From the NCBI GenBank assembly GCA_010094045.1, contig ML986686.1, positions 1-64,000 on the forward strand: DNA of 64,000 bases, read 5' to 3'. Source of the stretch: Lojkania enalia (Eukaryota; Ascomycota; Dothideomycetes; Pleosporales). The stretch's first letter is position 1. Each line of letters opens with the position of its first letter. Below are positions 9,007-39,452 of this stretch, piece by piece. The notes below the pieces were generated by a model, which saw nothing but the letters and a program-made list of their open reading frames with translations, was not told the DNA's origin and made no database searches. The position numbers and the translations under genes were made by a program.

Positions 9007-10365
9007 ATCGATTGTTCGGAAGAACACCTATCATACGAACGGAGCATCAAGAAAAGTGTTCAAGATTGGGAAGTTCGTGGACACTAGGACTTAGGCATCA
9101 TTCATTATCCATATGTAAATACCTATCACGGGATTTTGTCCTATGAACCACTCAACTGCTCCGATTATTATATGCAATTTCCAAATTATTCCCTAATGCT
9201 GCGAAGCGATTAGATAGAGAAAGTAATGTGTCCTGGATGAACTCAACCCCAGCTAGCCCCGCTTCATCTGAAATGAAGCTAAATGTCACAGATGCTTCAA
9301 ATCTTTGTGAGTTTTTTTCGTTGCGTCTAGCTGGTTCCGTAGGCTATGGCATCAGTCTCGAGTTCATGTTTTATTAGTTATTTACTGTGATGAGAGGCGA
9401 ATCTTGTCTCGGGGAGGAAGATGAGGAACTGAACTGCTTGATTGAAGATGGCCAGCGGGCCATATTTATGTACATGGAAAAGGGGTATATCAGCTGATAT
9501 CCAGCGTGATATCTAGAGTGATATCGACCGTGATATCGTAAAACGATATCCGATACAGCTCGGCAGACTTGCCAAAATCCCCATGACATTTACGGTATGA
9601 TGTGGACAGGCACCATTACCAAAGGTTGCTTAAAGATCTGGATAACTTTAAGCTAGTTATGAGCCTCAACTATGTTAATATATATAAGTATTAGGTGGTA
9701 TTTAATTGGGTTCTTCAATGTCCTGAGATTTATAAGCATATGGCTTGCCAAAAAGTTATACTGGCTACTAAGCTTATAATTATTTGGAAATTTTTTTATT
9801 AACAGTGAAAATATTTTATCTATAGAGTCATCAAACTCCGATTTTATTTAAGTCTTAAGAATTATCTGGTCCGACACAATCGCCAATCATAGTTAGATGT
9901 TCATACCAATCTACCCATCCAATCATATTGAGGCAAACTAGAGACAATAAATATGCGAGACGTCGAATATGCAAAGTCAATATTTGAGAGGTGCTAAGAA
10001 AGGAGGTTTATAAGCCTATAGTCGGTGGTGGTACTTAGCCATATATTGGGTTGCACAGATTACTTAACTTGAGGAATAGGCGTGTTACCTAATTTCAGGC
10101 TATAGCTGCGAAGTGCGCAATTTATATCCGTTTGAACGAGAGCATTTCCACCAAGTATAACTAAGTGCTCGAAACTACAGCAGCTTCGTTTACTAATCGT
10201 TCGAATACTCTGTCCCATCTAACATCCTTTATTGTTTCTTTTGTTTTGATATCTTACTTCATCTAACATCGGTTAACGGTGGCCTTTCCAGTGGAGTAAA
10301 ATCTCGTCTCATTCAGCCTTGCTTACGGTTTGAATATGGTACTTACCATATGGTAACATTTTATC
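9007..10365. other. AT-rich intergenic with tandem GATATC array
   Basis: 3' flank of the endoglucanase followed by AT-rich sequence without a gene. The only clear structure is the array at 9494-9550, listed separately. Confidence 0.5.
9494..9550. repeat. 12-bp tandem repeat built on GATATC
   Basis: GATATC occurs at 9496, 9508, 9520, 9532 and 9545, i.e. spaced 12, 12, 12 and 13 bp, with most units reading gtgatatc plus four variable bases. Because GATATC is a palindrome the array reads similarly on both strands. It may be a decayed minisatellite or a cluster of binding sites; nothing in the sequence decides. Confidence 0.75.
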
Positions 10366-14486: not shown

Positions 14487-16030
14487 CTACGGTCTGCCAA
14501 ACCCCACCAACTTCTCTTTCTCCATCCAATCATACACCTGGCTAGCCGCCCTTGGAACCTCATTCTTCCACTCTACCCCTTCTTGCATTTCAATGACCTC
14601 ATGCACAAACTCGAACAAGCTATCTACAAGACACTTTACCTCTTCGACTGAGTTCTTCGCATGGAAACTGATCTTTAGTCTCGTCTCGCCCTTGGGCACA
14701 GTCGGATAGTCAACTGGGAAGACGCTGAATCCCGCAAAAGTGAGGTGGAAGAAGAGCCAGTAGTGGTATGGTTCCTTAGTGCGGATGGGCGCAATATGTG
14801 TCATGAAGGGCTGGGCTTCCCAATCACTTGTGGCGAGTGGGATGCGTAGGATGGAGAGATCCTGGGCGGTTTTCCAGAGCGGATGGGAAGTGATAAAAGA
14901 GAAGAATGTGCGGGTGAGATGCTGCACGTGCGATCTAGCCTGAACAAGTGTCAGCATCTCTAGAACCGAGGTTTATGAACAATCATATACTTGGTCTACT
15001 TCGGGAGTAGGTAGGATATTGTACCCTGCTCGGATCGCTGCAACGAAAGGGAAGGATGGAGCTGTCGAAAAGATGACTGATTTGGAGAAATTGATTAGAG
15101 CCGCCCGGACGGTGCTGCTTCCCATAACGATCGCTTGCTATGGCATCAGCTTCAGCGCATAACCGAGCACTAGAATGCCGCACCTCCACTAGAGCACATG
15201 GCCTTCCCAAATGTATGCAGCCTTATTGCAATATCTTTCTCTAACCCAAGTTCCGATACAAGCCCTTTTCCCTGTTTCCCTAATATCCCCGTACTGTGCG
15301 CCTCGTCGACTACAAACTGGACGATTCCCTTTGCCTCTGAAAATACTTCCCTGGCGACATCAACTAGTTCTTGTAGCGGGCATATATCGCCGTCCATACT
15401 ATACACCGACTCTACTGCAACAATGACACATCGCTTGCCTTGCCTGATCAGCGGTTGCGAGTCCGCGATTGAGAGGAGCGTGCTACGAAAAGACTCGACG
15501 TTATTATGTGTGAATTCTTTCCGCGCCATAGCGAGGCTTTGATTCATGCCTTCACGCGTGCTCGCGTGGACGAGCGCATCGTAGACAATTACGTCGCCCA
15601 GACGTGGTATCGCGCTCCATATTGCGACATTACCCTCAAAGCCCGAGCTAACGACCAGCCCCGTTTCAGCGCCATGGTAGTCGGCGATGCGGCGCTCGGT
15701 CTCCTCGAGATACAAGGAGTTGCCATCGATAACTCTGGAGCCACATGCACCGGGAGTGAAATCGGGATATTTCGCTAACTCGCTAAGGAACTCAGTACGC
15801 AGTATTCCTGAAGAACCAAGGGAAAGAATGTCGTTGGACGAGAAGTCCACCGCATTGCTGACTTGCCAAGTGTTTTGAAGGGCAAGGAAGAAGCTTTGGT
15901 TTGTACGGCGCATGTCGAGCGCCTCGGTAAGGTTGCGCGTAAATATGTCTTGGTTCCTTCGCGATTGCGCGTCGATCTTCTGACTACGGATCCGAAACGA
16001 TAGATTCTCGCCGATTGGTGTAGCTTCCAT
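14487..16030 (-). CDS. Alpha-oxoamine synthase (PLP-dependent, class II aminotransferase fold)
   Basis: Three exons, complement(join(14487..14939,14991..15133,15184..16030)), 480 aa. The first intron (50 bp, GTGCGG donor, CAAG acceptor) is chosen because it restores the family string AIVMGSSTVRAAL; the second is 51 bp with GTATAT donor and GCTGAC branch. Motifs: GSRVIDGNSLYLEETE, YDALVHAS, VVAVESVYSMDGD-type core, DEAHSTG (Asp242, His245) and TFGKAM with Lys276 as the expected Schiff-base lysine. This is the family of AONS (BioF), ALA synthase, Kbl and serine palmitoyltransferase, which condense an acyl thioester with an amino acid and release CO2. Length is that of stand-alone BioF/Kbl/SPT subunits, much shorter than Fum8. 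It shares a divergent 1-kb region with the ketoreductase. Near a thioesterase-less HR-PKS the likely job is chain release with an amino acid, like FUM8; a biotin-type role is the alternative. Confidence 0.88.
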
Positions 16031-17052
16031 GATTGCTTGGGCGTGAGCGGGGTCAAACTAGGCGTCTAGACGGAGAAGAAGGTTCATGAAAGATTGCATA
16101 TCTGTTCCCGAGACCATTGAAGTGACTTCTCTTGCAGTCTAGGTACTCTTACGGCGCCACAATCCTAGGCGAGCGGTCGCCTAATGAAGAAGGCTCTCCG
16201 CGGGACAATACGCTAGTTGTACAAGGGTACTCTTTCATCATCTGCATGCACACGTATGCAGGGCAGCCGATTGAGGCTATCCGAAAAGTTGTGGGGGCGA
16301 AAACTAAAGGCAGTCAGGTCCTGCGCAAGAAACAGCAACGTTGATTGGAGAGCTAATATTAGCCTTACAGGTGTGGTTTGGGATAATTTAGAGTAGGGCG
16401 GGGGCGGGTAAAACAGCCGGAACGATGTTCGTCTTCTTAGGGTTCAGACGAATCGCCACAACGCAAGTGGTCTGTGGGTGAGTGATATGATCACATGACC
16501 TATCCCACCTCCAAAGCAATTTTGGAGATTACGTGCGTTAGAACTCGTCTATCCTAGTAGAATAAAATCCCCTTGCATACTGAAACGAGGCGCAATGCAA
16601 CTCGGCCACGAGTCACAAAATAAATTACTAGGCTAGCACGCATCTATATGCAACCCTAAAGCTACCACGGTATCGGAAGCTTTCGCCAAGTCCCCGGGTG
16701 GCAAAGCTCGGGGAGTATCGTACATACAGCCTGGCCTAGCGCCTACCTAGATACCTGGGGACTCTCATAGGAACGTTAACTCGGGAATTGAGCCAGCACT
16801 AGATCGTTAAAAATTCGCGACAGAGCGGGCCAAATATTAATGAATAGCCTTCTATATCTAACTCTATATACGAGGACATGATACTGTATGTAATTCTTCA
16901 AATGAATTTACGTACACTATAATTGGTTGTATTAAGTTCAATGCACGGCTTACGTGCCTAGGATTCGTTCCGTGCGAGTCTCCTTTTCTATCACGTCGCA
17001 CACACCCAAGGAATCACTTGACACGCCTTGATCACGACAATTCAAGCAGAAG
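16031..17052. promoter_or_regulatory. Divergent promoter region between oxoamine synthase and ketoreductase
   Basis: About 1 kb without a supported ORF separates two head-to-head pathway-like genes, so it likely holds both promoters. It becomes AT-rich towards the ketoreductase, with ttaattaatg-like and tata motifs around 16,840-16,875. A G-rich run (gggcgggggcggg) lies at 16,396-16,408. I could not find a convincing repeated operator. Confidence 0.45.
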
Positions 17053-18128
17053 ATGAGTGGACAAAATGTGTTCGTTGTGGGAGGCTCAGCCGGGTTGGGC
17101 AAGGAGATGTCAAAGGTGTTGGCTGCACAGGGCGCCAATGTGACCATCTTCTCGCGCGATCAGACGCGGCTTAAAGAGGCGAAACAGGAGATACTAGCTA
17201 CAAGAAAAGCGGAAACACAGGCTGTTGTCGCAGTGGCAGCGGATATGTCCAAGGCGGCCACGGTACTCGCTCCCTCCAGTCAGCGATGCGCGGTGCTAAT
17301 TGCGCCTCCAGGCTCAACACGTCCTCTCATCGCAGCCACAGCTTCCGGATGCGCTCTTCTGCGTGGCTGGAGGAACTGCGTACGAGCTGGGTTTTCTAGT
17401 TGACGTGGAGCCGGAGCAACTTGAGAGATGTATGAACAATAATTACTATGCTAGCCTGTATCCTGCGCAATCCATTCTCAAGGCTTGGATTAAGGACGAC
17501 AAGAACTCGAAAGAGACGCCTTCGAAGCCAAAGCTCAGGAAAATTATCTTCGTGAACAGCTCTGCGTCTCTAGTCCCTACACCGGGATACATCGCATATT
17601 CTGGTATGTCTTACTCTGTCTGGTATCTTGAAGGAATTCTTGTTGACACCATGCATAGCGGGGAAATGCGCTCAACGGGCTCTGGCTGACACCCTGAGAA
17701 CTGAGGTACTCCGCTACAATAATCCTAAATCTACCTACGCCGTGCAGTGCGTCTTCGCACACAACTTTATCACACCCACTTTCATCGAGGAGCAGAAACA
17801 CAAGCCCGACCTCACCAAGCGTCTCGAAGGCACCACAGGTGATCTAGCGGAGCTCGAAAAGTCGGGAAAGTTCCCGTATGCTGCAAAGATCGCACCTGAG
17901 ATAGTTGCCGCGATCGACAAAGGCGATTTTGCCATTATGGATGGAAGGTTTGAGCCCCAGATCTGCTGGGCTGTGTCGATTGGATCGAGTCCGAAAAGAG
18001 GACTGGGCATATGGGATTCATGTCTTGCGCTTCTAGCGTGTCTTGTGTGGCCTTTTGTCAGGTGGACTAACGACAGAGAAGCAGAGGGTGATGCGTATCG
18101 CCAAATGGGCAAGGAAGAGAGGAAGTAA
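17053..18128 (+). CDS. 3-ketodihydrosphingosine reductase-like SDR (Tsc10/KDSR, FUM13-type)
   Basis: Three exons, join(17053..17262,17312..17603,17659..18128), 323 aa, with introns of 49 and 55 bp (branch GTGCTAAT and GTTGAC). The Rossmann motif is VVGGSAGLG (residues 8-16). The catalytic Ser lies in FVNSSAS (153/154), and the second splice rebuilds Y166-S-A-G-K170, the YxxxK motif. The C-terminal half carries FAIMDGRFE and SPKRGLGIWD, characteristic of Tsc10/KDSR rather than of generic SDRs, and a terminal hydrophobic segment (LALLACLVWPF) for ER-membrane attachment. The known enzyme reduces 3-ketosphinganine with NADPH; in fumonisin biosynthesis the related FUM13 reduces the C-3 ketone of the polyketide-amino acid product. 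Its place between the oxoamine synthase and the PKS suggests such a pathway copy. It could instead be the primary-metabolism enzyme; checking for a second Tsc10 gene would decide. Confidence 0.87.
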
Positions 18129-18241
18129 TCATGGACAATCTATTCTTTCCAAGCAGAGTGGAATATTGTAGAATCTTTCCTATAGTAATAGCTAATGCCC
18201 GAAAATAATGATCCCCTTTCCAACCATATGCTCTCGACAAT

Positions 18242-19618
18242 CTACCGCCCATCCTCACTGTTCGTATGAACACTCGTATGAGGTTTGTCTACACTAGCAT
18301 CACTATGCGCAGTCGGAGTCTTGGACTCCAAATTGGGAGACGTAACAAACACCATATCCAGCTGACCGTCTCCAAGGCTGATGCTAATCGCCATCGGGTC
18401 CGGTCTCGGCCTTTTGGAGGGCGGCTTGAACCACGACGGTAACCCGCGGCGTGAATTGCTGTCAATCTCACTACTCTGTCTGCCTCGAGCGAAAAGGGAG
18501 CGAAAGAACGAACGCACGGATGCAGAGCCGGGCAGCGCGTTGAAGACCTTGGGCAGCGAGGGGAACCCCATAATGAGGAATCCGGCGGCAATTTCAGCAG
18601 CCATCCACAAGACAAGGTCAGAACCGTAGTAGATCATGTCGTTGGCATCATACGTCTTGAAGAGATAGTAGATGCGGACGGTAGCAGCTGCGGTTGCACT
18701 GCAGCTCGTTAGTCGCAAGTTAGTAAGCCGCCTAATCGAGTGTTGACTTACAAGATACCAACTACGAATAGCAAACTCATACCAATCTTTTGCTTCCTAG
18801 TAACGTTCAACCCCCATATTACTTTCTGTGGCAGCATCAGGATAATAATATCAGAAAGCAAATTGATAAAACCCGATGCCTTCGCATGCTTAGTGATATC
18901 AATCGGGCAATGCCCGCCTGCCTCCCCGGCTGCAATCAGAAACGGATTCCAAATCTTCTCCCGCGGCTTGCACTGCCAGATCTCGGTGATAGTACCAATG
19001 CCATAGAAGAGCACGTTAGACCAGATGAGTGCGTGCGAGACCCAGAAGAAGGCGTTGCGCTGTTTCATCGGTACGAAGATTCGAATCCAGGAGAGGAGAA
19101 TGGCGACTTTGATGAGCATGATGCTGAGGCCATAGAGAAGGGACATAATGTGCGATTTCTGAGGGGGCATTAGTGCTGGTCCGGCGCGGGGTAGGGGAAT
19201 TCAGCGTACGTAGAGCACATCAGATAGAGTGCGGAGCGAAACATTCCAAGTGTGCACATGGTAGACTTCACCGCCCATCAACAGGATCTCGTAAAGAAAA
19301 CCTGCATAGAGACCCTAAGTGAACATGGTCAGCAAATGGCCATCATTCCATCCTATAACGATCAATACATACCAAAGCCGAAATAAAAAGTGCATCCTCA
19401 ATGTACACTCTCTTCGTAACGACTCTCGATGCAAGCCGTAATAAGAATGCTAGTCCCGCAATCACCGCGCAGAGGGTCGCAACTCCAATCGCGATTCCAC
19501 CATTTCCACCCGGATTGGCGAGATCAGGCATGATACCAGATGGAGGCTCCATGGCGGGCATCTCCCACAAGGCGTTCAGTTCCTCTGGAGACATCATGGC
19601 AAGCGTCGCTGGATCCAT
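18242..19618 (-). CDS. Fungal rhodopsin-domain 7-TM membrane protein (SAT4/PTH11-like)
   Basis: Four exons, complement(join(18242..18698,18752..19158,19210..19314,19373..19618)), 404 aa; all three introns are 51-58 bp with GT-AG ends and branch sites (CACTAAT, GACTAAC). After an acidic/proline-rich extracellular N-terminus come about seven hydrophobic helices: IAIGVATLCAVIAGLAFLL, VYIEDALFIS.., YAGFLYEILL, MSLLYGLSIMLIKVAILLSW, FFWVSHALIWSNVLFYGIG, GFINLLSDIIILMLP, then MSLLFVVGIFATAAATVRI and AAEIAAGFLIMG. The WQCKP between helices and the helix IKVAILLSWIRIF are typical of the fungal rhodopsin-domain family, members of which often lie in secondary-metabolite loci. The C-terminal tail of about 120 residues is Ser/Pro/Arg-rich and cytoplasmic. 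No retinal lysine is claimed. Function is unknown; it may be a receptor-like or membrane-organising protein. Divergently placed to the PKS. Confidence 0.8.
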
Positions 19619-20621
19619 TCTGATTATTTTTGTTAGGACACTTCGTATGGAATGCGAATGTACAACTCCTCGTACAAATAACGGTACGCTGCTACTTGAG
19701 AACGCGAGGAAAGATGGGAGGATTTACAGTCTAAATCAGCCCCCACCATGCGCACCCGCCCGATAGACCCACCTGAGCACGGCCGAAACAGCACATGGGT
19801 CTATTGTGTTTAGATCCTAAATCGGGCCGTTCCTTTGCGGTGGCTTTTAACAAGTCTTAGTCCCCGAGGGCGTCCAGCCACAGCGCATTTAGAGCCCTCT
19901 TTGCAGACCTATCATCATGAACACTCCAAGCAGATGTCCTGACACACATACGAGAGCATACTTAGTGTCTCGTACTCCCGCAGATACATCACGTCGTCAT
20001 CAGCCATTCGGGAACTTGGCAGAGGCAGAGGTGTCTCTGCCCACAATTTGGCCCCTCCGTAATGAACACTAAAAAACGCCTCAACCGAGAAGTGGTCAAA
20101 GCGTCAATTGGCTATGTTCAAACGCTTAGCGAATTTGGGCGCCTGATACATACTGCTAAGCAGGGGCTAGCCCCATCATTACTGGAAGCATGCTGTGCAC
20201 ATTCAACCTACCAAGCTTCTCGGCAGCGGCTTTGTATCGTGATCCTTGCAAGGCAGAAACATTAAGAAGGCGGAAATAGACGAAGAACAGGAGAGGGCAG
20301 ATCCTTGTCCCAGGACCCAAAAGGCTAAACTGAAACAAATGAAAGGTAAGGGTTCCGGGTTGCATCGGGTGGGCGAAGAAAAGAAATTGAATTGGGGGTT
20401 TCCATGTGAAAGTGAGGGTGCCTATTAGGTGGGGTATTTGGAGTAGGGATTATATAGGGGCCTGATGTCTAGGGACCTGCATATCACGAATCCTTTCGAC
20501 GGCTTTCATAGCTAGCACTTCTTGTCAATTGAGCATGTAGCCTAGCTGTGCGCTCAGAAGCTCCACTTGACCACTGCAACGGACCAACTGCTGCCATCGC
20601 GTTCGCTTCAATTCTTCCGAA
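19619..20621. promoter_or_regulatory. Divergent promoter region between the 7-TM gene and the PKS
   Basis: Roughly 1 kb of non-coding DNA lies between two head-to-head genes. A short A/T-rich box (gggattatatagggg, about 20,445-20,460) sits 160 bp upstream of the PKS start and could be its core promoter. Scattered CGG and CCG triplets exist, but no symmetric Zn2Cys6 site stands out. Confidence 0.4.
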
Positions 20622-23600
20622 ATGGCATCGATAGCAGAACCAGTTGCCATCGTAGGGCACGCTTTTAGGCTGCCTCCAGATATAGAAGACGAATCTGGTT
20701 TCTGGGAGATGCTCGAAACTGGCCGCAACGTGAGAACAGAATGGCCTAAATCACGTGCCAACCTAGACTCGTTCTACTCAGCGGACTCAAAGGGCGACAA
20801 TAAGGTAAAGTACATCCGAGAAAGTACGGATACAGTGGAACTGACGACTGTAGTTGACGGCACGCGGCGCCCACTTCTGCGCCCAAGATCCTGGAATCTT
20901 CGATGCGCCTTTCTTCAGCATAACGTCCAAGGAGGCCGCGTCTATGGACCCACAACAACGCTGGCTTTTGGAAACATCCTATCGAGCGTTGGAAAACGCC
21001 GGCTTGCCAGCCGAAAAAGTATCCGGAACGCAGACAGGCGTCTTCGCAGCCTCAATGACAGAAGATTACACTCGCATGATTTCTAAAGACCCCGATGACG
21101 CGCTCCCGAACACAGGTACAGGCAATAATGCATCAATTCTAGCTAACAGACTAAGCTGGTATTTCGATATGCGCGGCCCTAGCATCACCATAAATACGGC
21201 ATGCTCGTCTAGTATGATCGCCATGCATCTCGCGTGCCAGTTCCTGCAGAGCGGTCAATGCAACGTAGCGTTGGTTGGTGGCGCCAGTGCGCTCCTTAGC
21301 GTGGAAAGCTCACTACAACTCTCCGCCATGAACTTCCTTGCGCCAGACGACCTCTGCCATAGCTTTGATTCACAGGCACATGGGTACTCGAGAGGCGAAG
21401 GTGTGGTTGTTATGGTGTTGAAGAAACTATCAGATGCCGTTCATGATGGCGACACTATACGTGCTGTCATTCGAGCAACTGGGACTAATCAAGATGGTCA
21501 TACGCCGGGAATAACGCTCCCCAATCCGGCGGCACAAGAAGATCTTGTGCGAAGAGTGTATAAAAGCTGTAATCTCGGCTTTGAAGAGACGAGGTATTTC
21601 GAAGCTCACGGGACGGGAACACAAGCAGGGGATTCGGCTGAGGTGAATGCACTGGGTCGCGTCTTCCGCTCTTGTAGAAGCTCGACAGAGCCTCTTTACA
21701 TGTAAGTCGCCCGAAATCACTGTTTATGTTATCTATGCATCTAATGCGGATGTTAGCGGCTCGGTCAAGTCCAACATCGGACACCTTGAGGGAGCGAGTG
21801 CCCTCGCTGGAATTCTGAAATGTACGCTTATGCTGGAACGTGGTTTGATACCGCCCCAGGCGTTATTTCAGAAGATGAATCCCAAAATCAACGCCAAATT
21901 CTACAATATCCAGGTTCCCACCAAGTGTACGCCGTGGCCCACCTCAGGACTTCGTCGAATCTCGATTAACTCGTTTGGCTTCGGTGGATCGAACGGCCAC
22001 ATGATCCTTGACGATGCATATCATTTGCTAGAAAGGCTCGCGTTAAAAGCGATCCACAACACTCGAATCCCACTTTGTGGCGCACAGGTCCATAGCTTGA
22101 TCGGAGAAGCTCAGTGGCCCTTAGCCGATGTAAACGTACCTGCGCCAGTATCAGTCAGCTCACGATCATCTGGTCCGGGATCTTCTGCCATGGAGACAAT
22201 ACCATCACAGACCACAGCTTCAGACACGTTCTCTCCCAGCCCTACTCTCCGCCTCCTCACCTTCTCCTCTCGAGACGAAGCAGCTTTACGTCGAACCTTT
22301 GAGCAGTACTCTTCGTACTACCATGACAGCATATCAGGATTTTCCGACAAAGCAGATAGATTGGCATACGTGCTATCTGAACGACGTAGTCTTATGCCGT
22401 GGCGATCCTTTGCTATAGCCCACGAATTCACTAGAGCGCCGTTGGACTTCGCTCCTCCTGTCCGATCGTCCCGCGACGTAGGATTAGCATTCATCTTCAC
22501 AGGACAAGGCGCACAGTATGCTGGCATGGGCAAGGAACTGCTCCGATATAGAGTGTTCGAAGAGGCCATTTCTCACGCTGGAAGAATATTTAAGGAGCAA
22601 GGGGCTAACTGGGATGTGCTAGGTATGGCGTCTTTTACCATTTTCGAAACCGCGTTCACGAACTGACCCATGCTAGATGAGCTAGAAATTGCAGAGCGCA
22701 TTGATCGACCAGAATTTAGCCAGCCGCTCTGCACGGCTCTGCAAGTCGCTCTTTCGGAGCTTCTAAAGTCGTGGAACATCACGCCTGCCGCAGTTATCGG
22801 CCACTCTTCTGGTGAAATTGCCGCAGCGTATGCCGCCGGGATGTTGTCAATTGACTCTGCATGCCGGATAGCGTATCATCGTGGAAGACTAGCCGGTGAA
22901 ATTGCTAGGTTGGGCTTATATGCGATGATGTCAGTCAACCTCTCAGAAGAGACCCTTCATCCGTACTTAGCAAAGATACCCCTTTCTGGAGATATCCATG
23001 TTGCCTGCGTGAATAGTCCGCTGAACATTACGCTTTCGGGCGAGGAGACGGATCTCGCTACATTGAAGATGCACCTTGACGAGGACGGCATCTTCGCACA
23101 GAAGCTGAAGACAGGAGTTGCGTATCACTCTCCGGCTATGCAGGCTATAGCAACAGAGTACGAGACTTGTCTAAATAGTCTCAACCAAGGAGCGCGGTGC
23201 GAGACCTCTGCGGTGATGATCTCGTCCGTGACTGGCAACGTCGTCTCGGCGTCCGTTGCGTCGCGACCTCGGTACTGGGTTGATAACCTCGTGTCTCCGG
23301 TTCGATTTGCAGATGCACTTCAGTATATGATGGTAATTGCTCCTAAGGACGGCCACAACCTCAAGATCCACGAGCTTCTAGAGATAGGCCCTCATGGCGC
23401 GCTTCGACGATCAATCAGCGACACCATGACCACGGTAGGGAAGAAGGTCCGGTACGCATCACTCTTGTCACGGTTCGATTCGGCTGTAAAAACGAGCCTC
23501 GAAGCTGCTGGGAGCCTGTTTACAAGAGGCATTCCTGTGGATATCGCTGCAGTCAACCAGATAGAGAAGTTGAATGAAGCCACTCCTGCTCTAGTGGATA

Positions 23601-26600
23601 TGCCATCATATCCCTTTGATCGGTCTCAACGATACTGGCATGAGTCACGGCTCAGCAGAGACTGGCGGCTGCGCGGCGCAGCACCGCGTGAAGCGCTCGG
23701 CGTGCGGTCCTCCGATTGGAATCCGCTTGAACCACGCTGGAGAAAACTGCTCAGCATAGAGAATTCGCCATGGATTGGAGACCATGTTGTTGGGGACATG
23801 GTCCTCTATCCGGGTGCTGGAACGTTCATTATGGCCCTTGAAGCTGTACGCCAAAACACAAATCCAGGGCAAAAGATTTCGGGCTTCTTTGTCAAAGAGG
23901 CTACATTTATGGCGCCGATTGTAGTCAAGTCTGGGCTGCAAGGTCGCGCAGATGTTGTGACACAGCTGTGCCCACTCCGACAAACCTATGAGAAAACAAG
24001 TGTACGGTCTGAAGTTCGTGTTTTTTGCCTCCAGGATGATAGGTGGCAACTGTCTTTCAAAGCAACCATTCACGTCGAGTATGAGGAGCCGCATCCGGAC
24101 GAGATCGACGCAGGACGTGAATCTCACGCAGATGCAGAGAGACATTTCGAGCGCTGGAGGAAGTCAGATGAAGCATGTAAGAAAGCGATCCCCAAGTCCG
24201 ACTTTTACAAATGGGCGGCTGGGGCTGGCATCCAATATGGTGAGGCGTTCCAGCTCGCTGACAATGTCCGCTGGGATGGCGACCTGCTTGGAGTCTCGGA
24301 AGTGCGTATTGACGCTACTGAGCATGAGTATCAGGGCCTCGTACACCCCACTGTTTTTGATGCGGTGTGCCAGACGGTTTTTGCTGCGCCTTCAAGAGGA
24401 GCGACGGCTACATTTCCAACCCTTGTCCCACACAAAATGCACGACGCTTGGATTTCAGCAACAGCCTGGCAACAGCCCCAGTCGTCGACGATACGCACTG
24501 CTGCCGCGTCTAGACGGAAGAAGGGCGTGATAGGTATGGACTGCGAGTTGACAGCCGTTGCTGAGGATGGGTCACCATTACTCCACATTCCAAAATTTGA
24601 AATGCTCCCCGTGCTAACAAAAGACGAAGATGAGGGCGCCGAGAGAAGCCTCCTTCACGGAATTGAATGGAAGCCCCTCTTATCTTTGCTTACACCTACA
24701 CAGCTTCAGGAACTATGCTCTATCAAAGATCCGACCAGGGACGACGAGGAACGCGGTCGTTACATGCAACAGCTCGATGACACGCTCAAGGCCATCCTCC
24801 AGTATCACTTGCCAGAGATTCGGGCAATTGACTGGTCGCTTGTGCCACCACACTTTAAGAAGTATGTCTCATGGCTGGAACGCTATTTGAAAGCTTCGCC
24901 TCCCAGTCATCCGCGCAGTTTTGAAATTCTCGATAGGGAGATCCAGCAACTGCAGAACAACAACCAGCAACGAAGGATCACAACCGAGGTTGCGCGCAAC
25001 CTTCCAGCCATCATAACGGGCGAGATTGATCCGCTAAACTTCCTCTTCTCCACAGGTCTGGCTTCGAATTTGTACAGTGACATCTTCGCCGACCTCTGCA
25101 ATCAACATTTCCAGACGTACATGGACCTGCTTTCACATCAGACACCTACCATGCGGATTCTAGAGGTCGGGGCCGGCACTGGAGGATTCTCTTCGCACAT
25201 TCTTTCGGCACTTAGGCGCCGTGAGGAGGCCACTGGTGGAATATCATTCCTAGAGTACAACTACACGGACATTTCACCCTCATTCTTCGAAAATGCTAAA
25301 CAAATGTTTGCATACTTCGGAGAGAGAATAAAATTCCAAGCACTAGATATAGAGTCAGAACTACAATCTCAAGGTTGTAGCGAAGGCAAGTACGATGTCA
25401 TATTTGCCGGGGCGGTCCTACATGCCACATGCAGTCTGTCGCATACTTTACATAATCTGCGCAGAGCATTGAAACCAGGCGGAAAACTGGTGTTTATGGA
25501 GCCAACCCGGCCAGATCTACTCCTTGACGGTGTCGCCTTTGGAGTGCTGCCTGGTTGGTGGCTTGGAGTCGAAGAATCTCGCGCTGATGGGCCGTTATTG
25601 ACAGTACCACAGTGGGACCAGATCCTTCGCGAGAATGGCTTCTCAGGTAATGATCTGGTACTGAAAGACTATGAGATGGAGAGTGTACATGCGTACAGTA
25701 TTATTGCGTCTACTGTGTGCGAGGAATCCGTAGCGCTCAGAAGGGAAGAACTGTCCGTGATTTACGTTGTTGAAGAGGGAAACGAAAGGCAACGAGAAAT
25801 TGCAAGCGCTTTGGTTGCTAGAGAACCTAGTCTGCAAGGAGCTTCTGTGACATTCGCAGAGCTAAAGGATGACAAGAAAGCAAAAGCCAACTACGTGGTA
25901 TTTTTGGTCGAGATTGAGAGCGCGCTGATGACAAATATTGATGCAGCTGCTTTTAGCATCCTGAAGAGGCGGATATTGGAATGGAAGAACTTGCTCTGGG
26001 TAACAGCTCCTTCAATGTCGCCGGCTGCGGCGCCCCATGAAGGTCTGAAGGATGGCTTCCTGCGTGCGCTGCGATCGGAGTCTGAGCATAAAGGCCTTGT
26101 GTCGCTGACGCTTGAGACTTTGCAGAATGCTGCAGACCACATCACCCGAGTGTTCAGGTCCGTCTTCTTAGATCATGCGCCAGAACTGGAGTATTCCGTG
26201 CGAGACGATCAAATTGTCACCCCGCGGCTGGTTGCTGAGACGAGCCTCAACACCAGTCTGAACGCCGCTCTGCATCCGCAGCCGAAAACATCTTCCTGGC
26301 TTCCAGGGCCACCGCTTAAGCTTGATGTGCTTCACCATGGCTCACTAGAGACACTGCATTTCACTGAAGACACTCACTATTGCGACCCTCTAAAGCCTGA
26401 CGACATTGAAATCGAGGCCAAAGCCTGGGATCTAAACTTTCGCGATGTGTTTATTGCACTCGGTCGACTGGAAGAAGAAACTTTCGGTGATTGCGCAGGG
26501 GTTGTGACCCGCGTGGGCTCAGATGTGCACGACTTTAAGAAAGGTGACAGAGTTGTCATGATGGGCCCAGGCGTCATGAAAACGTATCCTCGGACTCGGG

Positions 26601-28506
26601 AGTGGTGCACCAAAATACCCGACTCCATGTCCTTCGAGGAGGCCGCGTCGGTGCTCAATCCTGGGATTTGTGCGTATTACTCGCTGATTGAAGTGGCTCG
26701 GCTGCAGAAAGGCGAGAAGGTCCTCATCCACGCCGCCGCAGGGGGCACAGGCCAGATGGCCGTAATGGTGGCGCAGATGGTGGGCGCGGAGGTGTTCTGT
26801 ACTGTGGGCTATAAAGAAAAGAAAGAGCTGCTGATGAGTCAATTTGGTATCCCAGAAGATCATATCTTCTATAGCCGGAATACCAGTTTCAAAAAAGGCA
26901 TAATGCGTGTAACAGACGGATATGGTGTAGATGTTATTCTAAACTCGATAGTAGGAGAAGGTCTGCGTGCCAGCTTCGAATGCGTCGCACCGTACGGTCG
27001 ATTCGTCGAGCTCGGCAAAGCGGACATCAAGAGCAAGGCACAGTTGCCGATGGAGTGCTTCTTGAACAATGTCACCTTCACGGCAATCGATATAGTGCAC
27101 CTGGCATTCAATCGTCCGCAGATAGGACGGAGGATACTGCAGGCGGTGATGGAGCTGGCGGGAAGGGGAATAATTCAAAGTCCGTGCCCGTTGCATGTCT
27201 TTGGTGTAGACAAGACGGAGGAGGCCTTTCGGTATTTTCAGAGTGGCCGAAACACAGGTCGAACCGTCATCACAGTCCAGCCTGGTGCTGTTGTGCCTGT
27301 AAGTCAGCTCTTTTACCGGGAAGCTCTGCTAATATTCTATAGAAACGGCTTCTACAGCGCAAGACGTGGGCTTTCGACCCGAATGCGACGTATTTGATTG
27401 CAGGCGGAATGGGAGGGATCGGCCGCGCCATGATGAAGTGGATGGCGTCCCGTGGCGCGAAGTATATCATTGTTCCGTCGAGATCTTCTCGATCCGCAGC
27501 TACCATGCTGGCAGCCATGGAGACGGTCGAACAGCTCAGCAAGCAAGGTGTCCAGATCAAGACGCCCCGCTGCGACGTTTCATCCGCCACCTCACTCCGT
27601 GCCGTCCTCGACGAATGCGCCAAAACAATGCCGCCTGTCCGGGGCTGCATAAATGCTGCGATGGTGCTTCAAGACTCAGTATTCGACAACATGACGCATG
27701 CCCAGTGGAAGCAGACCATCGACTCCAAGGTGGCCACGTCTTGGAATCTCCATACGCATCTGTCTACTAATCTCGACTTCTTTATCATGCTCGCCTCGGT
27801 TGCAGGTATCGTAGGCAGTCCTGGCCAGTCCAATTATGCTGCTGGTTGCACATTTCAAGATGCCCTCTGTCGGCGGCGTGTCCAGCAGGGCCAGAAGGCC
27901 ATCTCAATAGACTTGGGTGTCATGCGCACTATCGGCATCGTTGCCGAGACTGGGCGGTTGCAAAAGAACTTCGGCGAGTCGCGGGCCATGATTAAGATTG
28001 AAGAGGCGGAATTCCTCGCGTTGCTGGATCTGTATTGCGATCCTGAGCTGCCAACGTTGACGCCGGATAAGAGCCAGATCGTTATGGGCGTCGTCACGCC
28101 GGCAGACATGATTGCGAAAGGCGAGGAACTGGCTGATCAGCTTCACCGGCCTCTGTTTGCAAATTTTGCTCAGCCAAAAGATATCACCCAGTCCACTGGT
28201 TCAGCGACCGTCGTCAACTTTGCGGCCTTGTTCGCACAGGCGGCAGGCCAGGAGCAAAGGACTAGCATCGTGGTTGAAGCTCTGGCGCACAAGCTCGCGC
28301 GGGCGTTGTCCATATCCCCAGATGACGTGGATTCAGACAAGCCACTTCATATCTTCGGCGTGGACAGCCTCGTTGCCATCGAATTGAGGAATTGGATCGG
28401 AAAGGAGTTTGCGGCCGAGGTAGCAGTCTTTGACATAATGGGTTCGCCCTCTGTCGTCGCGCTCGGCGACCTTATCGCCAAAGTAAGCAAGATGTCAACT
28501 AAGTAA
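20622..28506 (+). CDS. Highly reducing type I polyketide synthase, KS-AT-DH-cMT-ER-KR-ACP
   Basis: Five exons, join(20622..20804,20854..21701,21757..22622,22677..27298,27343..28506), introns of 44-55 bp, about 2560 aa. KS: Cys178 in TACSSS, His313 in EAHGTGT, His353 in SNIGHLEG; the residue before TACSSS is Asn where most HR-PKS have Asp. AT: FTGQGAQYAGMG and GHSSGE (Ser676). DH: HxxxGxxxxPG with His1002 and Asp1194 (PTVFDAV). C-methyltransferase: LEVGAGTGG at about 1460, seemingly intact. ER: LNFRDVF (about 1885) and AAAGGTGQ (about 1984). KR: AGGMGGIG (2193-2200) and Tyr2338 in QSNYAAG. ACP: GVDSL, phosphopantetheine Ser2515. The chain ends soon after the ACP, with no thioesterase, reductase or condensation domain, so release must come from another protein; the neighbouring oxoamine synthase is the candidate. 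All catalytic residues look intact. Domain order matches FUM1-like enzymes. Expected product: an often fully reduced, alpha-methylated acyl chain. Confidence 0.96.
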
Positions 28507-28883
28507 ATTGCTGTAGGATGTTTCTGGAGTGTGAGGGAGTAGAGAATAAGTGCCTAATCCGATAAGAGCCATTCAGCGACCAAGAGCAGAGAAATAGCGT
28601 TCTTATATTGACGAAGAGGGCGACCTAAGTAGCCCTCTAATCATAATACACATTTTCTGCCTAGATTCAAATATGCCTATCAATAGAATTTGACTTCTGT
28701 CCTAATGGAAAGATAGATCACATCGAAAAGTTAGGATCCTCATGGGGCTTCTAGTCATAATTGCGCTAGGCAGATGACTTAGCGAAAATCCTGAAAGCTT
28801 CTTAGCACGCTAGCTAAATACTAAAGCTCGCAGCAAATGTGTTAGAAAAGCCCTTAGAATGAGAGAAATGAACAAAAAGAAAA
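28507..28883. other. PKS 3' flank
   Basis: Non-coding, moderately AT-rich. No ORF, repeat or hairpin terminator recognised. Confidence 0.5.
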
Positions 28884-28967
28884 TGAACCCTAGGCGATTT
28901 GAACGCCTAACCTTCAGGACACTCCAAGAAACTGGAATCTGACGCGCTACCGTTGCGCCAAGGGTCC
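28884..28967 (-). tRNA. tRNA-Trp (anticodon CCA) with 12-nt intron
   Basis: The minus strand folds as a full cloverleaf. The 7-bp acceptor stem (GGACCCT with AGGGTTC, one G-U) is followed by discriminator A. The D arm is GCGC/GCGC with loop AACGGTA, the anticodon loop TTCCAGT has CCA at 28933-28935, and the T arm is AGGCG-TTCAAAT-CGCCT. The 84-nt length is explained by a 12-nt intron at the canonical place after position 37 (28920-28931). One A-C mismatch closes the anticodon stem next to the loop. The body strongly resembles eukaryotic tRNA-Trp (ggcgcaacggtagcgcgtc). It lies between the PKS and the exporter. Confidence 0.9.
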
Positions 28968-29463
28968 GACTTTTCTCTGATTGGCTTAGATGGTTTCTAT
29001 AATTTTAATACATATAGAGCGTAATAAAAGTAGGAAAATTCCATTGTTTGCATGGGGAATTGTGGCCATGAAGGTTGGGAGGCTTGGCCGGATATATCGC
29101 ACGATTCGGCCCGACGGAGATTCCGCGGCAACACACCTCTAGGTCCATGCCTAATATAGCACACGTTATACATACTCAGGCGTACATCTCGTGATATCAG
29201 ACAGCGCATTCCTATTTCCTATTGAGTTCCGTCTCGTTTCGTCGCATCCCGCGCAATCCGTCCACCTCCCTCCAATTCCAACATGAAGTTCCGCGCTTGG
29301 CCTCGGGCTCCGCGGTCCCGAGCTTTTCCGCCGCTACTCTCCGGCTAATGGAACATCAAAAGTGCCTCCATCCAAGTTGCACAACATGACCATCTAGCAT
29401 CGTCTCTCTTTTTTTCACCTTTCGGCGGAAAGATTTTGGGGATAATAGAGATAAGTGGAGGGC
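28968..29463. other. Intergenic, tRNA upstream and exporter promoter
   Basis: Non-coding. 28,985-29,040 is AT-rich, upstream of the tRNA. A T/C-rich stretch (ctctctttttttcacc, about 29,404-29,419) lies just ahead of the MFS start and fits a fungal promoter pyrimidine tract. Confidence 0.45.
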
Positions 29464-31180
29464 ATGAGGCGTCCGGGATGGCTGTTGTCGTTGACGCAGC
29501 ATGGCGAGAAGCCCCCTTATTTATTGAAATGTCGGAGCTCAGAGGGATTTATTATCGGGACTGTTGCGCTGGCTGTCTTCACTGTATGTAAATTATTCCA
29601 ATTACTTTTTATTTCTCTTAAATGTGATGCAATGAGAGTTATGACTGATGGTATGAAAGGATATGTTTCTGTACGGGGTCATTGTGCCCGTTGTCCCGTT
29701 TGCGTTGGAGGAAAGGAGCCATGTCGAGCATGATAGAGGTGCGTATCTGATAGACAGTATTGCTCTATTGTCTTAATTAAATTGTAGTTCAATATTGGGT
29801 ATCTGTACTTGTCGCAGTTTATGGCGCTGCGCTGCTCGTGTTCTCGCCGATATGTGGATGGCTTGCTGACAACTCCTCCTCACGACGCTCCCCGCTCCTT
29901 CTAGGCCTTCTAGCACTACTCGGAGCTACTATTATGCTAAATGTCGGAAATCAGATTGGTATCTGGATCGTCGCACGTATTCTTCAGGGGGCGTCTGCAG
30001 CCGTTGTGTAGGTTCATCTACAAACCCCACACCAGAGCACTTACTGACGTGATGTAGATGGGTTGTAGGTTTGGCCCTTTTAGCGGACACAATACCCCAA
30101 GAGCAACTCGGCCAAGCCATGGGGTACGTGAGTCTCGGAATGTCACTAGGTATCCTAATTGCGCCGCTACTTGGGGGTGTTGTTTTTGAGCACGGAGGTT
30201 ATGATGCTGTATTCGGCATGGCATATGCATTGGTTGGGGTTGACATAATTCTACGTCTACTACTTGTTGAAAAGAAGGTTGCAGCAAGATGGGATCCTAG
30301 CATGGCTGGTCGTGCCACTGAATCGACAGACACTTCCTTTCACGGCCAGAGTGCCCAGGAAGAATCTTCTCATCAACCTAGTCAGCTCGAGTCTAAGGCG
30401 AAGATTCGCACAGAAACAAGAGAACCAGATCTAGAAAAGGCCGTGGAAAATATATCCCCGTCTACTGAGACTTCCACCAATCCCGAATCGTCCGCTTCTC
30501 CCATCGCCCCATACACCCGTCGACGTGACCGCCTACCGCCCATATTTTCCCTCCTTTGCTCACGCCGACTCTTAGCCGCGCTATTCGGCTCCCTCATCCA
30601 GGCCGCAATTTTAACGTCCTTCGACTCTGTCCTGACAATCCACGCCGCCGAAGTCTTTAACTTCCGTTCCACCGCCGCCGCGCTTCTCTTCCTCGCTCTC
30701 GTCATTCCAACCTTCTTTGCCCCCCTGGGCGGTCTACTAAGCGATAAATACGGTGGCCGATACTTCGCTGCCGGTGGCTTCCTCCTTTCGTGTCCGCCTT
30801 TCATATGCTTGCGGTTCATCCAGGAGAACAGTGTCAGTGATAAGGTTCTGTTATGCGCGCTCCTTGCGCTGATTGGATTCTTCCTGTCTTTTACGTTCCC
30901 GCCATTCATGGCGGAAATATCTCGTGTAGTCGAGGCGAAAGAGAAAAGCATACAAGCGAACGGCAGACCCGGGTTTGGACCCGGCGGCGCGTATGCCCAA
31001 GCCTACGCGCTGTTCAACGTAGCGTTTGCAGGCGGGTGTATGGTTGGGCCACTACTGGCAGGCTTTATAGTGCAGGAGAGAGGGTGGTCGACGATGACGT
31101 GGGTTATGGGTTTGCTGGATGGTGTTACGGCGATACCGAGTTTCCTTTATCTTGGCGGTTGGGTTTTTGGGAAACCATGA
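29464..31180 (+). CDS. Major facilitator superfamily exporter (DHA1-like, 12 TM)
   Basis: Four exons, join(29464..29583,29660..29738,29788..30007,30058..31180), 513 aa. The introns (76, 49, 50 bp) all restore one open frame. I start at the ATG of MRRPGWLL; the frame opens slightly earlier but without ATG. Helix 1 runs across the first splice (VALAVFT-DMFLYGVIVPVVPF). Then come WLADNSSSRRSPLLLG, matching the MFS loop 2-3 motif GxLaDrxxrr, the ARILQGASAAVVWVVG helix, and GQAMGYVSLGMSLGILIAPLLGG, antiporter motif C-like. A Ser/Glu-rich cytoplasmic loop of about 70 residues separates the two halves, then six further helices starting LLAALFGSLIQAAI and including PTFFAPLGGLLSDKYGGR. This is a proton-antiport drug/metabolite exporter of the VMAT-like DHA1 branch. 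Next to a PKS its likely job is export of, or self-protection from, the product. Confidence 0.88.
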
Positions 31181-36200: not shown

Positions 36201-36395
36201 TTCTTAGGGGCTATTTCATTGCCGTCTCATTTCTAACTACGAGTCTTTCCTCATGTATGTGTCGCATAGCACAGATTGTCAAACGCGATTAGATCAAGGT
36301 CAAAAGCTGCTAACTATTCCTGCTGACATGATAGAGGTCCCAAGTTTCTCAACCTAATTACTGTCCCGAGATATCTACTACTCCACGCCACAGCC
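33233..36395. other. AT-rich gene desert upstream of the NLR gene
   Basis: Three kilobases without a supported gene. 33,700-34,260 is more GC-rich with several short overlapping ORFs, none with a start context, splice structure or motif. 34,850-36,050 is strongly AT-rich with many TA steps, as expected of mutated repeats. I could not recognise an element or terminal repeats. Confidence 0.5.
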
Positions 36396-39300
36396 ATGCC
36401 TGTCGCCGAAACGCTCGGCGTGATTGGCAGTATCATTGCCATTGTCCAGATCTCCAAAACGATCATCTCGTTCTGTCGGTCTTACATTGATGGGATTGAT
36501 GGGGCTCCGTCAGACCTCCGAGTGATACTTATCGAAATATCGGCCCTCAAAGGGATCGCCAAGAGTCTACAGTACCTAACTCAACCTAATATCGCTAACT
36601 CAGCCCTACTGAATCAACTCGCTGCCGTCGCGGGTCCGATCGAGGGCTGTAAGAAAGCGCTAAAAGAGCTTGAGACATTGCTTCTACCTGCGGAAAGTTC
36701 AAAAATTGATCAAAGATTAAAGGGGCGCAAGCTTAATGTCGCAACTGCGGCATTGTGGTGGCCACTAAAGGCGGGAAAAGCAAAGAAGCTGCTACAGGAA
36801 ATCATGCAACACAAGGCGACGATCAATCTTGCACTCGCTGCGGAATTTACGTATGCTTTAAATTCATGTTCTATAGTAGGATGGTTTTCTGACCTTCTTT
36901 ATAGCCAGGACTTGAAAGAAGTTAAGCAGAAAACCGAAGAGATCCAAACTTTGCTCACCGGTAAGAACAATTCCTTCGCCGGACACACTGGCTGAGCAGG
37001 TACAGAAAGCGAGCGTGAAAAGATTTGCCAATGGCTTGAAATTACCAATCCATCAGATATCCATAATCGATCTCAGAATCTTTATGAGCCTGGAACTGGT
37101 TCTTGGGTGCTACGGACTCCCCAATGGCCCCTCTGGATCGAAGGGAAGCATCGTTGCTTGTGGATTAATGGCATTCCTGGAGCCGGAAAGTCAATTCTAG
37201 CTTCTTATTTGGCCAAAGAAATCGAAAAGCATTGTATTTCTTCCTCGAGCGAAAGGATGAAGCTTGGCCATGCGTACTATTACTGTTACTTTGGTCATAA
37301 TCAGGATGAATCATCACACTTCCTACGCTGGACTATTGGCCAACTTTGCAGGCAGTCGAGAAAAATACCTGAGGAACTCCAGAATATACACAAGTCGGGC
37401 AAAACGCCCAACCTTTCATCCCTCCTCTCAGCTTTGCATGGTATCATGGGAGAGTTCGAACGAGTTTATCTTGTCCTGGATGCTATTGATGAGAGCATGC
37501 CTCGAGCAAACCTCCTTCGCATCATCCGAGATCTCTCCACAGACGTAAGATTTTGTTCTCTAGGCTTAGTCGTAACTAGCCGGCTATATATTGACATTGA
37601 ACAAGTATTGGAAGTCTGTTCTATGCCAATCACCATGTCGAACCCGTTCGTGGAAGAAGATATTGGGACTCTCGTCCGTTCAGCAGTCCAGTCAGATCCA
37701 AGATACCAAAAATGGCCGGAAGGTCTGAGATTTGAAATGCAAGATACGATTCCAAAAAAAGCAAAGGGAATGTAAGTATTAAATTGCGACGCTGTGCGCT
37801 TCTGTAGCTCATTGGAGCCCAGGTTTCGCTGGGCTGTATGTCAACTCGACATCCTTAAACGCTTGAGGCCTGATGTCTCGGTTATCAGGATAGCTCTCTC
37901 GAATCTCCCTAAGACACTTGATGAAACGTATGAGCGCATCTTCCTCGCCATACCTAAAGATGATTGGCTCTCCGTGCAACACGTTTTTCACTGGTTGGTC
38001 TATCACAATGCCCTATTTGGGGAAAAGATCCCTCTCAGCACTCTTCTGCAGGCTGTGCAACAAAGTACTGTAGGTTTACTTTCACCCGATGCGGATGAAC
38101 TTCATGATTTTGAGGGTTTGCGCGAGCGCTGCAGTTGCCTCATTGTGGTTGAGCAAGAAGACTTACGCGGTCTCGATGGCACAGTTTACTATAAACGAAG
38201 CACGGTCTCGTTTGCACATTATACCGTCAAAGAGTACCTACAGTCTCCTCGAATCTCTGGGAAGACAGTTGGATTCTTCGCTCTTGAGCAGGAAAAAATA
38301 CAGGAACAGTTCGCAGAAATTGCACTCCGTCAAGCACTAGCTATTCAGCCATACACGTTGGCTGGATATGATGGATATGAAGATCAAAGAGCTACCCACA
38401 GACTCTTGGATACAGACTTCAAGCTCTACTGCGGAGTATCTTCGGCACTACAGCTCAACATCTGGTCTGAGGCTATGTCCTCAGACCCAATCTTGCTGGA
38501 GCTTAGTGAAGCATTAGTCAACCCCCATAGACCGGCTCATCAGGACATTGTCGTTTTGCTCTCTATGGCAGACTATGCAATTGATTTTACTCAAAATTCT
38601 GACTTATATCCGGAATTCCAATTCTGGTATATCACTTGGTGGCGAGATTTGGACTCAAATCCTGCAGTTTTCCTGAGCTTTCTTATTACATCAGGCTTTT
38701 CTAACACACCATGCCTAGCGATAGCCTTCGCAAGGAAGCATTCAATGCTACCTGTCCTTACACAGCAACTTCATATCACGAAAGAAGTCTGGCACCTATT
38801 TGACAAGGATAATACTGATTCCTACGAATTTTTAGGGACGATACCTGAAATGGTTGCGCAGTGGGCGTCCAAGCAGCCAGAAACATTCGACTTAATTCTA
38901 GACTTGGTTTCAGAACAAGGTGTGATTCACTTTGATCTCTCGATACTATTGCTACTGTACATTGGTTGTCACAATCATAGCATATGCAAGAAGTCATGTC
39001 CTCTTGAAAGACTGCTGCACTTGGGAGCGAGCGCCAATGGTCCAAATGGAGCTTTCGTAACTCCGCTTCAGATCGCTGTGGTATGCTGGGACTTTCACGG
39101 GCTAGAAATACTCTTGAATGCAGGCGCAGATCCTAATATACTTGGAGAAGAGGGGTCGGCGTGGGCACTAGGTACGCGCATGGAACGATTTAACCACCTC
39201 CACGGATCAAGTTTAGTCCATATTGTCAGGCACTTTGAATGTAATTACGAAGGTGATTTGAAGGATGAGCTTGGTCTTGATGAAACCGTGCGCAAAATGG

Positions 39301-39452
39301 TAGAGGCGTTGTTGTTGGAATCTGGAGCGGTGGAAATTGAGTTAGACGACCCGGGGCAAGGGTCCGATGCTGTCTCTGATGGGGTTGGGTTTGATGACAA
39401 TGGAGATCAAGGGGAGAATGAAGATCCCGACCTAGAGGAAATTGCCGAGTAG
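36396..39452 (+). CDS. NLR-like STAND protein: fungal N-terminal domain, NACHT, degenerate ankyrin repeats
   Basis: Three exons, join(36396..36960,37000..37771,37823..39452), 988 aa. The first intron is only 39 bp (GTAAGA..GCAG) but restores the frame through TESEREKICQWL; the second is 51 bp, and its acceptor was chosen to give KGMFRWAVCQLD, the usual NACHT-distal sequence. The N-terminus (VAETLGVIGSIIAIVQISKTI) is the fungal STAND N-terminal domain type, with a hydrophobic first helix reminiscent of Helo-like membrane-acting domains. The NACHT domain has Walker A GIPGAGKS (Lys252) and Walker B YLVLDAIDE (about 350). A winged-helix/helical region follows, then only about two ankyrin-like units (LERLLHLGASANG, LEILLNAGADPN), then a Glu/Asp-rich tail. 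Such proteins act in heterokaryon incompatibility and innate-type recognition. It lies beside AT-rich DNA, usual for this fast-evolving family. Confidence 0.87.

Follow-up and report, generated by a model that had tools for sequence, protein, structure and literature searches.

Do three genes that lie close together in the ascomycete Lojkania enalia, encoding an alpha-oxoamine synthase (AOS), a short-chain reductase (SDR) and a highly reducing polyketide synthase (HR-PKS), make a sphinganine analogue, or do housekeeping enzymes merely stand beside a polyketide synthase (PKS)? Sphinganine-analogue metabolites (SAMs) inhibit sphingolipid metabolism, and some of them are mycotoxins of food concern. 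The stretch analysed here (the window) comprises the 64,000 nucleotides at positions 1 to 64,000 of contig ML986686.1 (assembly GCA_010094045.1), referred to as C109 of the 58.1-Mb, 400-contig genome, and the genes in question lie at 14487-31180. From comparisons of sequence we conclude with high confidence that the locus is a SAM biosynthetic cluster that has few enzymes beyond the core, a minimal set, and would make an amino-polyketide. An initial annotation, made from the DNA alone, had proposed the same general logic; its interpretation is supported and its observations are confirmed in part.

The SAM core was postulated in 2020 by Kim et al as a PKS, an aminotransferase and an SDR, sought within five genes (PMC7376913). 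As read from its sequence, the locus falls within this genetic definition. The AOS gene (14487-16030, minus strand; exons 15184-16030, 14991-15133 and 14487-14939) encodes a SphA-like, pyridoxal phosphate (PLP) enzyme of 480 amino acids with the catalytic residues Lys276 (HTFGKA), Asp242 and His155, and corresponds to the class II aminotransferase gene of the definition by its PF00155 domain and its match to SphA (513 bits). An intergenic region (16031-17052, from the gene models) separates it from the divergent SDR gene (17053-18128, plus strand; exons 17053-17262, 17312-17603 and 17659-18128), whose product of 323 amino acids belongs to PF00106, carries YSAGK and corresponds to the FUM13/Tsc10-related SDR through its match to TSC10 (8jat, 73 bits). 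The HR-PKS gene (20622-28506, plus strand, five exons) encodes 2555 amino acids with the domains KS-AT-DH-MT-ER-KR-ACP, each of whose motifs is present; this is the domain set of a PKS for a highly reduced linear chain, the chain itself being predicted, and the Pfam scan of the protein contains no thioesterase domain. The complete HR-PKS without thioesterase, the intact Lys276, the intact YxxxK of a Tsc10-like SDR and a gene for a transporter of the major facilitator superfamily (MFS) had all been claimed in the initial annotation and are borne out, and its outer coordinates are exact, 14487 being the end of the AOS stop codon (minus strand) and 31180 that of the MFS stop codon (plus strand).

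With GT-AG introns of 49-76 bases removed, each of the four named genes gives an uninterrupted reading frame. Comparison with public L. enalia proteins covered the AOS, SDR and PKS models: the first two equal P0001 and P0121 letter for letter, and the PKS model differs from P0241 in two places (27 residues vs 1; five residues missing from the model), both at possible introns.

Which kind of AOS does the window encode? Among 54 solved sequences found, the best match is SphA (9pep; 513 bits, 51% identity over 456 amino acids), followed at 501 bits by 9dos, which its depositors named 8-amino-7-oxononanoate synthase and which groups with SphA in the tree. The remaining solved sequences reach at most 110 bits and the solved chains of serine palmitoyltransferase (SPT) at most 102 bits. 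The best match to a protein of another species, among the matches listed, has 79% identity. Within the genome, which holds three other AOS-family genes (on contigs C331, C39 and C183), the window AOS is 49% identical to the C331 AOS, 44% to BioF, 30% to 5-aminolevulinate synthase (ALAS) and 25% to Lcb2; by the last value and the SPT scores it is not closest to the Lcb1/Lcb2 subunits. The genome's own BioF is the C183 gene, flanked by BioB-type (BATS, radical SAM domain) and BioDA-type (aminotransferase III, AAA_26) genes, and ALAS, Lcb2 and Lcb1 are encoded elsewhere as well (578, 580 and 169 bits to their solved namesakes).

A 127-row tree groups the window AOS with that of Massarina (100%), and both with those of Amniculicola and Kalmusia (99% SH-aLRT). 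The window lies in a clade of 64 rows (100%), apart from a clade of 47 rows with SphA, and BioF falls outside both. A more careful tree of 52 rows recovers the four-taxon clade (100/99) and, more weakly, the wider clade (83/99). A single clade of the window AOS and the genome's own BioF, the grouping that the initial annotation had named as fatal to its view, is rejected by this tree (p-AU 0.00016, with a rough BioF model on a long branch). In both trees 9pep and 9dos stand in another clade (the separating clade having a bootstrap of 83 in the 52-row tree), so that the window AOS is not placed as an orthologue of SphA. Together, these comparisons support an AOS that is neither SPT nor ALAS nor the genome's own BioF.

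For the SDR, the comparisons likewise support a Tsc10-like protein, yet not the only one of the genome, the case that the initial annotation had counted against its view. A second Tsc10-like gene on contig C43 matches TSC10 at 118 bits, compared with 73 bits for the window SDR, and a third, partial open reading frame (ORF) on C44 does so at 83 bits. These two pair with each other in the SDR tree and stand away from the window SDR as well as from all of the 104 matches. The window SDR groups with that of Massarina (98%) inside a clade of 22 rows (99%) and does not fall into the clade of the A. fumigatus row P0176.

Are the three core genes also linked in other fungi? Linkage was scored on the best 120 of 6042 (AOS), 125 (SDR) and 1561 (PKS) matches, from which 111 AOS, 84 SDR and 76 PKS rows were used; nearly all are named by NCBI, and species names were checked by eye. 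Leaving the window aside, these rows place relatives of the AOS and the SDR on a common contig 11 times, those of AOS and PKS 25 times, and those of SDR and PKS five times, a common contig not being the same as adjacency where locus tags are missing. In Massarina eburnea, Amniculicola lignicola and Kalmusia sp., a single contig carries relatives of all three; these fungi, like the window organism, belong to the Pleosporales. The Kalmusia locus tags (000660 for the PKS, 000662 for the AOS, 000663 for the SDR) are nearly consecutive and thus indicate near adjacency. Consecutive or nearly consecutive tags were also found for AOS and PKS in Truncatella, Monosporascus 5C6A and Hypoxylon texense, and for AOS and SDR in Nemania bipapillata and Psora. 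The PKS tree (121 rows) unites the window with Massarina, Amniculicola and Kalmusia in one clade (100%). With an AOS distinct from SPT, ALAS and BioF and core relatives on one contig in related fungi, the proposed combination of PKS, oxoamine synthase and ketoreductase is supported. Three proteins of 2947-2981 amino acids (P0274, P0295 and P0332, from Durotheca rogersii, Hypoxylon trugodes and Xylaria curta) are annotated with an N-terminal AOS (~450-460 amino acids) followed by an HR-PKS, and are either real fusions or merged models.

Besides this limit of the contig counts, several points weigh against a SAM cluster. The genome's own BioF, a partial sequence, also matches SphA first (248 bits; the next kind 116), and since 9dos scores 501 bits as well, a high SphA score by itself does not separate the AOS from fungal BioF. 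The BioF control thus weakens the SphA score as evidence and leaves linkage unaffected, so that the case is carried by the second (BioF) gene, the tree and linkage. The 52-row tree puts the BioF model on the SphA side, and its clade with the window AOS but without SphA has an ultrafast bootstrap of 83. Of the related taxa, Massarina alone is supported together with the window in the SDR tree. No regulator was seen at 14.0-33.5 kb among ORFs inspected by eye and the translations scanned with Pfam, the MFS gene is assigned to the cluster by proximity, and the serine at position 83 (see below) does not point to one amino acid for the AOS.

Which further genes belong to the cluster? In the spliced models the order from 14487 to 28506 is AOS, SDR, rhodopsin and PKS: between SDR and PKS lies a gene for a fungal-rhodopsin-domain membrane protein (18242-19618, minus strand, four exons, 404 amino acids; PF20684, E=3.7e-40) of uncertain membership. 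Between the PKS and the MFS gene (29464-31180, plus strand, four exons, 513 amino acids; PF07690), a candidate exporter, stands a tRNA gene (28884-28967, minus strand; RF00005, 50.8 bits) that is outside the pathway. Pfam confirms the domains of all five proteins. The initial annotation had listed its four genes rightly and left out the rhodopsin and tRNA genes; of the two divergent pairs that it saw among the four, that of AOS (minus) and SDR (plus) stands, the PKS and MFS genes share the plus strand, and the second divergent pair is formed by the rhodopsin (minus) and PKS (plus) genes.

The chance that the cluster consists of AOS, SDR and PKS only, with the MFS and rhodopsin genes as bystanders, is only a little short of even. 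The intervening tRNA gene and the placement of the MFS gene by proximity fit this view, and with at least 158 exon-wise matches to PF20684 in the genome, rhodopsin genes may stand near AOS or PKS genes by chance. Conversely, MFS genes are known in SAM clusters, SphD included (PMC7376913, PMC10936153), the best solved relatives of the window MFS are vesicular acetylcholine and amine transporters (at most 63 bits), and a PF20684 gene also lies ~0.8 kb from the C331 AOS match (C331:3621-4508), so that a member of this family adjoins AOS or PKS on C109 as well as on C331. A further PF20684 gene is found ~8.5 kb from BioF on C183; within the genome, the nearest relative of the window MFS (C183:83005-84399; 46% and 34% identity in two stretches) is encoded on this contig too. 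As a cluster marker the rhodopsin gene was tried and, given the size of its family, kept as a lead only. An RTA1-type membrane protein was dropped as a cluster member, none of its 28 genome matches being on C109. A promoter motif common to the two divergent intergenic regions was rejected: AOS-SDR and rhodopsin-PKS have no word of 10 or more bases in common (block-shuffled mean 2.01).

To the left, the cluster is bordered by an AT-rich stretch with few long ORFs, which adjoins a GH45 gene and starts with a dispersed repeat (9381-9591; ~205 bases, with at least 39 other copies at 92-95% identity among the matches scored). To the right follow a GH5 glucanase gene and then genes without evident link to the pathway; pieces of a NACHT/NPHP3_N (NLR-like) gene lie at 36327-39449.

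What would such a cluster make? Following the scheme for SAM clusters (PMC7376913) and the work on sphingofungin (PMC10936153), the PKS, judged by its observed domains, would build a linear chain, reduced and probably C-methylated, which in the absence of a thioesterase would stay bound to the acyl carrier protein (ACP) of the enzyme. The AOS, with PLP, would then join an amino acid to the acyl chain under loss of CO2 and release a 2-amino-3-ketone, by analogy with SphA and Fum8, and the SDR would turn the 3-keto group into a 3-hydroxyl, as do Tsc10, SphF and Fum13. The MFS transporter may perhaps export the product, and AOS and SDR could also feed the host sphingolipid pathway as self-protection, as reported for SphA/SphF. 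The absence of P450s, ceramide synthase and regulator noted in the initial annotation holds within a limited scope: none was seen at 14.0-33.5 kb in ORF lists inspected by eye and in Pfam scans of 15 window translations (six inside the stretch; not every ORF was scanned), nor were the sphingofungin-type P450 SphH, monooxygenase SphC and acyl transferase SphE seen among these ORFs. Because no P450 or other oxygenase was seen nearby, we predict a simple 2-amino-3-ol as the product, in complexity nearer to 2-amino-14,16-dimethyloctadecan-3-ol (AOD) than to fumonisin.

This layout is a further example of SAM clusters already described, ordinary in kind and not a new system. Putative SAM clusters were reported from Fusarium and, beyond it, from 43 species in 24 genera, some of them Dothideomycetes; 26 of these 43 have an SDR (PMC7376913). 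In the Fusarium clusters SAM3 and SAM5 (AOD), which we liken to the locus by description, PKS, class II aminotransferase and SDR are also the only known enzyme genes, so the initial suggestion of a minimal or undescribed variant does not stand, the minimal layout having been described in 2020; the amino acid predicted there is glycine for SAM3 and alanine for SAM5 (PMC7376913), whereas the window AOS has serine at position 83. The fumonisin and AAL-toxin clusters (FUM1/FUM8/FUM13), again by description, have the same three core steps (PMC7376913). The sphingofungin cluster (SphA, SphB, SphF, SphD) resembles the locus in its AOS (51% identity), Tsc10-like SDR, MFS gene and PKS without thioesterase, as reported for SphB (PMC10936153). 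It differs in that the window AOS falls outside the SphA clade and the SDR outside the clade of the A. fumigatus row, and its P450, monooxygenase and acyl transferase genes were not seen near the locus. Fum8 is a longer, fused protein; the window AOS has 480 amino acids and no FUM-type P450 was seen beside it.

At what we judge by eye to be the equivalent of ALAS residue 83, the AOS has serine, as do SphA and BioF; among 125 rows this position holds Ser in 89, Val in 24, Thr in seven, Ile in two, Ala in two and a gap in one. Kim et al reported Ser at position 83 for SAM1, SAM2 and AONS and read it as alanine for SAM1/SAM2 (PMC7376913), and SphA used aminomalonate when given a polyketide-like substrate and serine when given palmitoyl-CoA (PMC10936153). 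Predicting the amino acid from position 83 is thus not decisive, and the serine common to SphA and BioF puts the rule for amino-acid choice in doubt.

We consider it unlikely that the enzymes work as proposed and the aminoketone is cyclised or altered to an alkaloid-like product rather than a sphinganine analogue. A model for such a course is curvulamine, which is made with a PKS plus the PLP enzyme CuaB. The aminoketone freed by AOS-type release is reactive, neither position 83 nor chain length is decisive, 17 of the 43 putative non-Fusarium SAM clusters have no SDR (PMC7376913), and the C331 PKS-AOS pair has no SDR match on its contig in the genome search. Yet the DH, ER and KR motifs of the PKS agree with a reduced chain, the linked SDR is Tsc10-like, and no cyclase or oxidase was seen near the locus. 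That second PKS-AOS pair (C331:5287-16647, loci L028 and L029) contains an HR-PKS, and both of its proteins point to one species, the AOS being 97.8% identical to Lindgomyces ingoldianus P0067 and the PKS nearest to P0339. On C39 (264801-270365, L035), ~2.6 kb separate an AOS-family gene and an ORF whose translation has a ketosynthase domain (PF00109, E=3.3e-51). Very improbable, finally, is a housekeeping role of AOS and SDR (as biotin BioF, SPT or sphinganine reductase) beside a PKS, for which speak the shared enzyme family and 44% identity of AOS and own BioF, their common first match to SphA and the TSC10 match of the SDR, but which is contradicted by the separate BioF in its biotin-type locus, the separate Lcb1, Lcb2 and ALAS genes, two other Tsc10-like genes (one closer to TSC10), the rejected AOS-BioF clade and the linkage of the core genes in other fungi.

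Within the reading as a SAM cluster, a bolder and distinctly speculative picture is that the window, Massarina, Amniculicola and Kalmusia form a Pleosporales SAM lineage of their own, distinct from that of sphingofungin, whose undescribed product would be an unoxygenated, C-methylated 2-amino-3-ol, exported by a carrier resembling vesicular amine transporters, with AOS and SDR doubling as self-protection by topping up sphinganine. In the main texts of PMC7376913 and PMC12821873 (supplements lying outside the search), Lojkania, Massarina and Amniculicola are not mentioned, and literature searches for 'Lojkania enalia' and for the PDB codes 9DOS/9DRI/9DS0/9PEP found no paper.

With three core enzymes, the cluster would offer a clean setting in which to learn which chain and which amino acid are selected by PKS and AOS, and in which the position-83 rule for amino-acid choice could be put to the test. 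It extends the SAM layout to further Pleosporales.

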